A DNA stretch of 64,000 bases, from assembly GCF_963378095.1 (NCBI RefSeq), contig NZ_OY726397.1:3844001-3908000 (forward strand). Direction: 5' to 3'. Positions 20,078 to 57,651 of the stretch are shown here, piece after piece. Made by a program: the position numbers and the translations under genes. The stretch's first letter is position 1, and every line of letters starts with the position of its first letter. Under the pieces are notes generated by a model. It was given only the letters and a program-made list of their open reading frames with translations. It was not told the origin of the DNA and made no database searches. The stretch is from Mycolicibacterium sp. MU0053 (GTDB lineage: Bacteria > Actinomycetota > Actinomycetes > Mycobacteriales > Mycobacteriaceae).

Positions 20078-20212
20078 GGTCATGAGTGCCAGCAACAAGC
20101 CCCGGCTTGCTGGCCGGCAACCCTCCAACCGCGGTGGGGTGCCCCGGGTGATGACCAGGTTGAGTAGTCACTGGACCAACCATCCAGTGGGTTACACGGC
20201 AAGCGCGGGTCC
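20078..20212 (+). ncRNA. SAM-IV riboswitch
   Basis: The segment reads almost identically to the mycobacterial SAM-IV aptamer: GGTCATGAGTGCCAGC at the start, CCGGCTTGCTGGCCGGCAAC and CTCCAACCGCGGTGGGGTGC in the core, GATGACCAGG closing the first helix, and GGCAAGCGCGGGTC as the 3' pseudoknot strand. The variable peripheral stem (GTCACTGGACCA...TCCAGTGGGTTAC region) is longer than in the copy I remember. SAM-IV binds S-adenosylmethionine and represses downstream genes. Here it precedes metY-metX, so high SAM should shut off methionine synthesis. The ligand-responsive structure probably acts on translation, because no oligo-U terminator follows the aptamer. Confidence 0.95.
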
Positions 20213-28895: not shown

Positions 28896-28958
28896 CGCCG
28901 AAAGTCGGGTTGTTGTACGCGTTTCGCGAGTGACCCCGCGAACAAGTCAACTCTCGGC
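28896..28958. repeat. 63-bp palindromic direct repeat, copy 1 (locus 1)
   Basis: This copy is 62/63 identical to copy 2 at 29864-29926; the only difference is A at 28933 against G at 29901. The element is an imperfect palindrome with outer arms GCCGA/TCGGC and inner stem TTCGCG/CGCGAA. It contains the stop codon of the DUF559 gene and fills the gap between that gene and the convergent ABC exporter, so it may also act as a bidirectional terminator. Confidence 0.9.
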
Positions 28959-29810
28959 ACACCAGCCGGCGGCCCGTAGCGCTTCGCGGGCGCGTCGCAC
29001 CACCCCGGGCTCGTCGAACTCGAGGTGGCGCGCCGAAACCCGCACGATCCGCCAGCCGAGGCCAGCGAGGAACTCGAGCCGGTCGATGTCGGCGGCGTAG
29101 TGATTCGCGTCGGTCCAATGCTGTTCACCGTCGTACTCCACAGCGACCTTCCAGTCGGGCCACCCGAGGTCGAGGCGACGCACAATCCGACCGGCCGCGT
29201 TGCGGATCGGTATCTGCGTCACCGGCCGCGGCAACCCGCCGCGGACGAGCGCCAATCGCACGCGGGTCTCCTGCGGAGATTCGGCTCCCCCGTCGACGAG
29301 TTCGAGCACCTCCCGGAGCTGTCGGATGCTGCGGGCTCCCGGATACCTGGCGGCCAGCGTCGCCACCGCGGGGACGCCGATCGCCGTGGCGTTCAGCAGG
29401 GCGTCCACCCGTATCACGGCCTCGTCCAGTGGGAGTCGGCGACCGATGTCGAATGCCGTGCGCGGGGCCGTCGTACAGCTGACGCCGCCCAGCAGTTGCA
29501 CCTCGTCGTCCGCGACGGTGTCCCGGTGGATGCTGATGCCGGCCGGCGCCCCGTGCTGGGCGCGCACCAACTCGGCCGGCGCCTTGCGGGGCACCCACTT
29601 GCTGCCCAGCAGCGCGGCGGCCGATAACCCAGCCACTGTGGCCGCGCGGTTCGACCACAGCCACGCCGCGATCGCTCGATCCCTCGGAGTCAATTGGGCG
29701 TCACGCGGCGCATACACGTTGCGGTGCACTTTCGTGTAGCGCCGGGCCAGATCGCGGCGGGCCAGCGCGCCCGACGCCAACGCCTCGGTCGCCAAGATCA
29801 GTCTGGGCAC
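28947..29810 (-). CDS. AbiEi/DUF559-type nuclease-like protein (locus 1)
   Basis: The 287-residue protein has two parts. The N-terminal half resembles the winged-helix region of AbiEi-like proteins (LATEALASGALARRDLA, then VHRNVYAP). The C-terminal third is a DUF559/Vsr-like endonuclease fold: ESPQETRVRLALVRGGLP, RLDLGWPDWKVAVEYDGEQHW and DRLEFLAGLGWRIVRV, with acidic residues where Vsr-type nucleases bind metal. Nuclease activity is inferred. The gene has no partner and is flanked by 63-bp direct repeats; its last residues (A-E-S) and stop are encoded by repeat copy 1. It sits between the ABC exporter and mfpA, consistent with insertion. A second gene of this type lies at 56721-57614. Confidence 0.85.
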   Translation of the reverse strand: MPRLILATEALASGALARRDLARRYTKVHRNVYAPRDAQLTPRDRAIAAWLWSNRAATVAGLSAAALLGSKWVPRKAPAELVRAQHGAPAGISIHRDTVADDEVQLLGGVSCTTAPRTAFDIGRRLPLDEAVIRVDALLNATAIGVPAVATLAARYPGARSIRQLREVLELVDGGAESPQETRVRLALVRGGLPRPVTQIPIRNAAGRIVRRLDLGWPDWKVAVEYDGEQHWTDANHYAADIDRLEFLAGLGWRIVRVSARHLEFDEPGVVRRAREALRAAGWCAES

Positions 29811-29863: not shown

Positions 29864-29926
29864 CGCCGAAAGTCGGGTTGTTGTACGCGTTTCGCGAGTG
29901 GCCCCGCGAACAAGTCAACTCTCGGC
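29864..29926. repeat. 63-bp palindromic direct repeat, copy 2 (locus 1)
   Basis: This copy lies 53 bases upstream of the DUF559 start and contains the mfpA stop codon. MfpA therefore also ends in A-E-S, encoded by the same bases as the end of the DUF559 protein. It probably serves as the terminator of the five-gene mfp operon. Confidence 0.9.
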
Positions 29927-56585: not shown

Positions 56586-56644
56586 GAGCAGACGCGAACT
56601 TGCCTCTTTGAGGCACAAAAGGGGGAAGTACGCGTCTGCTCGCG
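56586..56644. repeat. 59-bp palindromic direct repeat, copy A (locus 2)
   Basis: The outer arms GAGCAGACGCG and CGCGTCTGCTC are perfect reverse complements, extended inward by the imperfect pair AACTTGCC/GGGAAGTA. The arms match copy B at 57593-57651 in the same orientation, while the central 16 bases or so differ. It lies between the choD start and the DUF559 start, 76 bases upstream of the latter. Confidence 0.9.
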
Positions 56645-56720
56645 AGTGGTACCGGGAGTTATGCACAGGCCGCAGACGGGCTGAATAGCAGTTCAAGCAC
56701 CCAAACCGCACGATCCCGCT

Positions 56721-57614
56721 ATGAAAGCAGCCGCCGGCCAAGCCCTCATCGATGCGGCCGGCGGCTTCGCCACCACCGCGCAACTGTTGACCGTGATATC
56801 CCGTAAACAACTCGACAGGCAGATCCGACAGGGGCAGCTGGTGCGGGTGTGGCGGGGTGTGTACGGCATCGAGAATCCCGACAGCCTCGGGCGACTGCGC
56901 GCACTCGACCTCTTCCTTGGTCGCGAGGCGGTCGCCTGCCTCGGCACCGCAGCGCAGTTGCACGGGTTCGACACCGAAAATCCCTCGGCCATCCACATCC
57001 TGGATCCGGGAGTCCGGGTGCGACCCACCGTCGGGCTGATGGTCCATCAGCGCACCGGCGCGCCGCTGCGCCGGGTCGCGGGACGGCTGGCAACGAGTCC
57101 CGCCTGGACTGCCGTCGAAGTGGCCCGTCAGTTGTCCAGACCTCGGGCCTTGGCGACGCTTGATGCGGCATTGCACTCTGCGGCGTGCAGCCTTGGCGAA
57201 CTGGACCGCGCCGTGCGAGAGCAGCACGGCAGACGCGGAATAGTCGCAGTGCGAGAACTTCTGCTTCTTGCCGATGGTCGGGCGGAATCACCCATGGAGA
57301 GTGAGGCTCGCCTGGTGATGCTCGAAAATGGCTTGCCGCAACCGGAACTGCAGTACGAGATCCGTGGACGCGGTGAAGTGTGGCGTGTCGATTTCGCTTG
57401 GCCCGAAGCCAGGGTGTGCGCCGAGTACGAAAGCGTGGACTGGCATGCCGGACGCAGCGAAATGCTCAGAGATAAAAAGAGATTCGCCGGTATTCAGGAA
57501 ATGGGCTGGACGATGATCCCCATCGTGGTGGACGACGTCCGGGTCGAGCCAGATAGGTTCACCGACCGGCTCGCCCACCATCTCTCATCGGCGAGCAGAC
57601 GCAAACTTGCCTAA
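56721..57614 (+). CDS. AbiEi/DUF559-type nuclease-like protein (locus 2)
   Basis: The 297-residue protein has an AbiEi-like winged helix at the N-terminus (GGFATTAQLLTVISRKQLDR, then LVRVWRGVYG). A DUF559/Vsr-like nuclease domain ends it (AESPMESEARLVMLENGLP, RVDFAWPEARVCAEYE, RDKKRFAGIQEMGWTMIPI). It is a distant relative of the protein at 28947-29810. Local base composition is lower in G+C than in neighbouring genes, suggesting transfer. It is flanked by 59-bp direct repeats, and the last residues (SRRKLA) and TAA are encoded inside copy B. It is inserted, on the opposite strand, between guaB3 and choD. DNA cleavage is inferred from fold only. Confidence 0.85.
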   Translation: MKAAAGQALIDAAGGFATTAQLLTVISRKQLDRQIRQGQLVRVWRGVYGIENPDSLGRLRALDLFLGREAVACLGTAAQLHGFDTENPSAIHILDPGVRVRPTVGLMVHQRTGAPLRRVAGRLATSPAWTAVEVARQLSRPRALATLDAALHSAACSLGELDRAVREQHGRRGIVAVRELLLLADGRAESPMESEARLVMLENGLPQPELQYEIRGRGEVWRVDFAWPEARVCAEYESVDWHAGRSEMLRDKKRFAGIQEMGWTMIPIVVDDVRVEPDRFTDRLAHHLSSASRRKLA

Positions 57615-57651
57615 ATCAGCCCCGCAATGGGGAAGTACGCGTCTGCTCGCG
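57593..57651. repeat. 59-bp palindromic direct repeat, copy B (locus 2)
   Basis: The same outer arms as copy A are present, with a different centre (AAATCAGCCCCGCAAT region). It overlaps the 3' end of the DUF559 gene and stops four bases before the guaB3 stop, so it can act as a bidirectional terminator for two convergent genes. Confidence 0.9.

Follow-up and report, generated by a model that had tools for sequence, protein, structure and literature searches.

What links a predicted nuclease gene to the pair of palindromes that encloses it? We asked this for a DUF559 gene of Mycolicibacterium sp. MU0053 that lies in a 64,000-nt stretch of DNA (NZ_OY726397.1, positions 3,844,001 to 3,908,000; hereafter the window, within which coordinates are counted). 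The gene (56721..57614, + strand) encodes a 297-amino acid protein, AbiEi-like and Vsr-like by predicted structure, and is flanked by two 59-nt repeat copies (56586-56644 and 57593-57651) that are 83% identical and in direct orientation. Each copy is itself an inverted repeat with a core unit of 56 nt, as delimited by sequence (upstream copy, 56586..56641, with two 20-nt half-sites around a 16-nt loop, additionally by a position profile of 84 units of the clade; downstream copy, 57593..57648). The end of the upstream copy is separated by 76 nt from the ATG, while the TAA (57612-57614) falls inside the downstream copy. Coordinates and alignment agree with the original prediction of 59-bp repeats around a DUF559 gene whose stop codon lies in the downstream copy; the outer arms, held to be identical, are not, as the downstream left arm is GAGCAGACGCA rather than GAGCAGACGCG. 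When the window was scanned for inverted repeats (15 of 18 arm bases paired, unit of 40-75 nt), four reached the threshold, with the two copies at this gene ranking highest. We propose that the locus probably belongs to a chromosomal nuclease-palindrome system, REPIN/RAYT-like in its organization and built on an unrelated enzyme.

In the structure model, residues 1-185 are predicted to form an AbiEi-like DNA reader, fused to a Vsr-like nuclease domain (codons 189-293; 57285..57599, + strand), for which structure comparison returned the homing endonuclease I-Bth0305I as the nearest fold. Residues 28-36 are modeled as helical and would constitute the recognition helix of an N-terminal winged helix (56802..56828, + strand), with residue 45 placed between the two strands of the wing. 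The nuclease residues are conserved in the gene family, and dN/dS ratios from 12 hand-picked pairs of relatives indicated purifying selection.

A protein search of the genome (5.45 Mb, one contig) identified 11 paralogues, counting the focal gene (L008 in the series L008 to L018), the closest of which is 54% identical. All 11 matched the MTES_1575 family and none matched the HUH/Y1 transposase domain PF01797 (E ≤ 0.01 in either case). Alignment of each gene's own upstream and downstream flanks gave scores of 71, 103, 40, 110, 28, 38, 121, 86, 55, 85 and 60 for L008 to L018, respectively. None of 104 mismatched pairings scored above 38, six pairings within the related trio L016-L018 (reaching 32) having been excluded from these controls. 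Nine of the 11 paralogues therefore carry a flanking pair above all mismatched controls, one (L013) ties with the control maximum, and the palindrome sequences differ from gene to gene. For L016-L018, the final codons and the stop again lie within the downstream copy. Within the window, the minus-strand paralogue L014 (about 28947..29810) is surrounded by two copies of 63 nt each that are 98% identical, one upstream (29864..29926) and one over its stop codon (28896..28958); these belong to a different palindrome family and, pairing at 14 of 18 arm bases, fell below the threshold of the window scan. The claim of a second DUF559 locus with the same architecture and an unrelated repeat is hence borne out, and the argument that two instances speak against chance now extends to nine of 11 paralogues. 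The upstream palindrome at this second locus apparently also contains the stop codon of the neighboring pentapeptide-repeat gene.

Across the genus, 81 of 118 genomes contained a match at E ≤ 1e-60 in a search that scored the best 20 candidates or fewer per genome and may have missed some genes of the clade. Of 100 loci (the 11 own paralogues and two further sets of 29 and 60), 47 have a GAGCAGAC-type palindrome on both sides of the gene, five have it upstream only, 11 downstream only and 37 on neither side, as counted with a family-specific detector, an earlier general one having called spurious hairpins at several loci. The 37 loci lacking this type include 10 of the own paralogues and belong mostly to a sister clade, which has different palindromes (GAGCGTGCGTG type), readable at many of its loci. 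Unit length was 56 nt in 98 of 110 units, 55 nt in eight and 57 nt in four; strong hairpins are predicted for most copies, and in most relatives the upstream copy ends ~40-110 nt before the start codon. On one side of the loop, which is otherwise free, there is a recurrent GGCGTGTC-like motif, both in the focal clade (e.g., L117, L125, L132, L141, L174) and in palindromes of the sister clade. The flanks of the first 30 loci fetched resolved into six neighborhoods once upstream and downstream links were merged, two of the upstream groups being loci at a contig edge. Gene and palindromes co-occur at several places, and at the same place in most species of a group.

Of 246 genomes from the class, own genus counted, 185 have a homologue. 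Sixteen loci outside the genus were fetched, one of which was truncated; of the 15 scored, 10 exceeded the maximum of 225 mismatched pairings, two of these (L274 and L281) being hardly palindromic. Spread on plasmids or phages is unsupported, with just two weak plasmid matches and one weak phage match at E ≤ 1e-5.

If each nuclease reads its own palindrome, arm sequence and protein sequence should change together, and the original prediction had proposed looking for this in the N-terminal domain. The outcome was positive. Inner arms of the upstream and downstream copies of the same gene agree at 8.44 of 10 positions, as compared to 5.44 across genes (47 genes; 0 of 10,000 permutations), and the loops of the two copies agree at 7.5 of 14 positions; half-sites are constrained, the loop is free and unit length is nearly fixed. 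Arm distance correlates with protein distance (Spearman 0.68 for 47 genes, and 0.56 for the 119 genes that were kept from 147 once non-intact, palindrome-less and duplicate ones had been dropped). After regression on total protein distance, the top alignment columns were 23, 45, 29 and 32, all within the N-terminal winged helix. Six of the top 10 columns fall in residues 1-60 (hypergeometric p = 0.026), and the columns of this segment outscore those of both other segments (p = 0.002 each). Taken as a block, columns 26-37 showed no significant association with the arm (p = 0.068), and distance over the C-terminal segment also correlates with it. At the level of single residues, positions 29, 32 and 33 of the predicted helix track the inner arm: with QQDV at positions 29, 30, 32 and 33, the arm is TCGCA in 34 of 34 genes; with KRAG, GCCCC in eight of nine; with RTAR, CTGCC or CTGTC in seven of eight; and with KMRT, GGCCC in four of four. 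An inner-arm TCG occurs in 46 of 53 genes with Asp32 versus 0 of 66 without it. The inner arm is apparently read by the predicted recognition helix and wing, and pairing and arm co-variation alike lend good support to the proposal of one private palindrome per nuclease.

Palindromes also occur away from the genes, and in this genome they outnumber them. The pattern GAGCAGACRC-N24-52-GYGTCTGCTC was detected in 90 of 118 genomes, at 0 to 94 copies per genome, while a reversed-pattern control returned 0 copies in all 118. Genomes with a gene of the clade had copies in 62 of 63 cases (median 14) and carried more of them than the 55 genomes without (median 1; Mann-Whitney p = 5e-15), gene presence having been assigned by reading the search output and the genomes being mutually related. 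This genome holds nine copies, two of them at the focal gene. The seven lone copies all lie between predicted genes, in short intergenic gaps; for five of them, the distance is 7-20 nt to the right neighbor and 12-37 nt to the left one. Judged by length and GC3 only, three of the seven are free of overlap by any high-GC3 open reading frame (ORF) of ≥ 90 amino acids; at the other four, the overlapping ORFs look spurious or touch by one end only. At one site (L023; G000:C1:4568206-4568257), the palindrome is partly merged with a gene-end hairpin; in a relative, this position is taken by a plain hairpin whose CGAGCAG/CTGCTCG ends are the same. A second family (GATTTCGGYGYG, mostly 49 nt) has 24 copies in this genome, two of which are the genes' own flanks, and was matched in 20 of 60 genomes (control, 0). 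Sorted by eye, its copies here fall into 13 GGTGCG, six GGCGTG and five GGCGCG units, the types of paralogues L017, L018 and L016, respectively.

Lone copies resemble the arms of the gene resident in the same genome. Over 93 copies from 15 genomes, flanking copies excluded and every listed lone copy used save in G007, which contributed 9 of 66 copies, the agreement was 7.80, above a permutation maximum of 7.08 (0 of 20,000), and the resident gene ranked first in nine of the 15 genomes and second in two. A conventional Y1 transposase was rejected as the required mover, with no Y1 match in five of 10 palindrome-bearing genomes; the other five, this genome included, have one. The sole such match here (IS200-type) is at G000:C1:4816834-4817196.

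Do the units come and go? The focal gene sits between neighbors that we take to be guaB3 and a GMC-type oxidoreductase gene (the choD-guaB3 gap), the names following in part an earlier reader. Both neighbors were seen in 24 of 30 loci; four of these contain the gene and 20 have none (gap, 14-270 bp). Among the gene-less gaps, those of L061, L066, L070 and L079 hold a lone palindrome from another family, and that of L084 holds one half of a focal-family palindrome. Orthologous sites were located by flank queries in eight relatives and their junctions read base by base. At the L018 site, G012 has a single palindrome, its right border unchanged, and G071 has none; at the L017 site, the palindrome of G104 is decayed and G102 lacks one. 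In G012, the L014 site (L316) is occupied by a palindrome pair resembling that of L014, but the gene enclosed is a different one on the opposite strand, presumably SnoaL-like, and a possible exchange of cargo between palindromes is suggested by this comparison. The counterpart of the lone palindrome L022 in G012 (L317) has different inner arms, and L025 is decayed there (L318) with matching changes in both arms; such arms may have been rewritten in place. Presence and absence of units at orthologous sites is real, and its direction, gain or loss, could be either. Elsewhere in the window, a SAM-IV riboswitch (20078-20211, + strand) is the sole Rfam match at gathering scores.

We infer the following scheme for this probable system. 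Each gene would encode a DNA reader, composed of the AbiEi-like winged helix and a middle domain, fused to the Vsr-like nuclease. The protein would bind, probably as a dimer, an inverted repeat of near-fixed length (56 nt, or 49 nt for the L016-L018 group), its recognition helix and wing reading the variable inner part of each half-site. With one copy on either side of the gene, the gene-less copies elsewhere, mostly intergenic where examined, would represent non-autonomous repeats. The most likely action of the nuclease is to nick or cut the palindrome (or its hairpin), after which repair by the host would copy palindromes to new sites and keep them matched to the resident nuclease, paralleling the role RAYTs are thought to play for REPINs. 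In a more specific form, which we put forward tentatively, palindromes are both spread and policed in the absence of any transposase: a double-strand nuclease with an antitoxin-type reader would cut, and repair would copy or overwrite palindromes genome-wide, old orthologous copies included, which would thereby take on the specificity of the resident enzyme.

The closest parallel matches this scheme in architecture and departs from it in the enzyme. According to PMC2817692, a RAYT gene has inverted REPs on its flanks, and gene and REPs co-evolve; REPINs consist of two inverted REPs and a less conserved spacer, with length and hairpin capacity critical (PMC3116915); and PMC8266576 describes the way TnpAREP spreads REPs as still to be elucidated. 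The systems share a gene enclosed by a pair of its own palindromes, extragenic palindromes in many copies, each with inverted half-sites around a spacer that is less conserved, gene-repeat co-evolution and mostly vertical inheritance. Unlike RAYTs, which are HUH/Y1 single-strand enzymes, the present protein is AbiEi-like and Vsr-like; the GTAG head of REP repeats is absent from the two 56-nt units of the focal locus; and the flanking copies here are direct or inverted.

Several observations weigh against the proposed system. Five of the 15 homologues outside the genus lack a flanking pair, and in this genome there is no clear pair at L012 (score of 28, control maximum of 38), whose partial half-sites score slightly better against another species' lone palindrome than shuffled ones do (31 and 34; shuffle maxima, 28 and 33). 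Copies of the repeat occur in 28 of 55 genomes without the clade gene (up to 29; median 1), and G035 has the gene and no copy by the exact pattern. Lone copies match the resident gene weakly in G013 and G109 (rank 4) and in G065 (rank 6), and the nine of G049 mismatch its known gene (rank 13 of 15), a clear exception for which nuclease genes may be missing or lost, or which may be just that. These nine are of more than one inner-arm type. Because the genes are related, the co-variation is partly joint inheritance, shared descent having been partly removed. Four relatives (G012, G077, G071, G104) have no lone palindrome of the focal family at the L008 site, loss of a gene leaving one copy may explain the L018 site equally well, and the junctions read showed neither a target-site duplication nor an excision footprint.

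Of the alternatives, an unlikely one is a homing-type selfish gene, with the palindrome as its target and the palindrome-gene-palindrome block copied into cut lone palindromes through recombination between palindromes; what spreads would then be the gene and not the palindrome. The catalytic domain is nearest in fold to I-Bth0305I, a Vsr-like fold being common to EDxHD homing endonucleases and this protein; the same gene family occupies six neighborhoods; and the orthologous L018 site holds a lone palindrome in G012 versus a gene with two palindromes here. Moreover, according to a review (PMC3943268), I-Bth0305I dimerizes on a target just short of 60 base pairs, a length in agreement with the 56-nt palindrome. 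I-Bth0305I is, however, an intron-borne phage gene with a different DNA-reading part. It is not known to lie between intact copies of its target, and homing genes normally interrupt and so destroy theirs. The focal gene neither interrupts its target, with intact palindromes on both sides and others in the genome, nor sits in a self-splicing intron, no intron being matched in the window by Rfam at gathering scores. Palindromes outnumbering genes also argue against homing, as does the lack of recent gene copies, since the paralogues here are at most 54% identical.

Quite improbable, too, is an AbiEi-like regulator that represses its own promoter and tunes its neighbors, with the repeats as its regulon and another role for the nuclease domain. 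According to PMC3985639, AbiEi represses its own promoter, its winged helix binding two inverted repeats, and both the distance of the upstream copy from the start codon and the short intergenic gaps holding this genome's lone copies would suit operators. This reading does not account for a downstream copy that covers or adjoins the stop codon, for copies coming and going at orthologous sites, for a single site being held by different families of palindrome or for the conserved nuclease residues. While the fold is that of AbiEi antitoxins (type IV toxin-antitoxin systems) and Rv2827c, the present proteins add a nuclease domain and dispersed repeats, and no AbiEii nucleotidyltransferase toxin is among the neighbors of the focal locus that were read. 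Ordinary hairpin terminators or insulators accompanying intergenic genes are scarcely credible: most copies are strong predicted hairpins, downstream copies stand at gene ends and terminators in G+C-rich genomes such as this one often lack a U run, yet generic terminators unlinked to the genes do not fit a copy 5′ of the gene, arm sequence that beyond structure tracks the protein, or constrained half-sites around a free loop at nearly fixed length.

Private palindromes likewise set the family apart from Vsr repair endonucleases and other DUF559 proteins, e.g. Caulobacter VsrA, and we do not place the system as a member of the RAYT, EDxHD homing, AbiE or Vsr families. No description of such a nuclease-palindrome system was found in the one literature library searched: no title among the DUF559 papers concerns palindromic repeats, one of them being covered by passages (PMC12907096), and none of the terms Actinobacteria, Mycobacterium, Corynebacter- and Streptomyces was found when PMC3733652 was searched for them.

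REPIN/RAYT systems are, as far as we know, the one case in which palindromes of the chromosome have a nuclease dedicated to them. An unrelated enzyme with the same architecture would provide an independent test of what REPIN/RAYT-like systems need. It would also give a function to many genes labeled 'hypothetical', 'DUF559' or 'very-short-patch-repair', 3,216 proteins having matched at E ≤ 1e-30 among 7,998 candidates scored. Finally, it offers a helix-to-DNA code that is directly testable in vitro and that, if true and readable from helix to arm, would amount to naturally re-targeted nucleases with ~56-bp sites across Actinomycetes.
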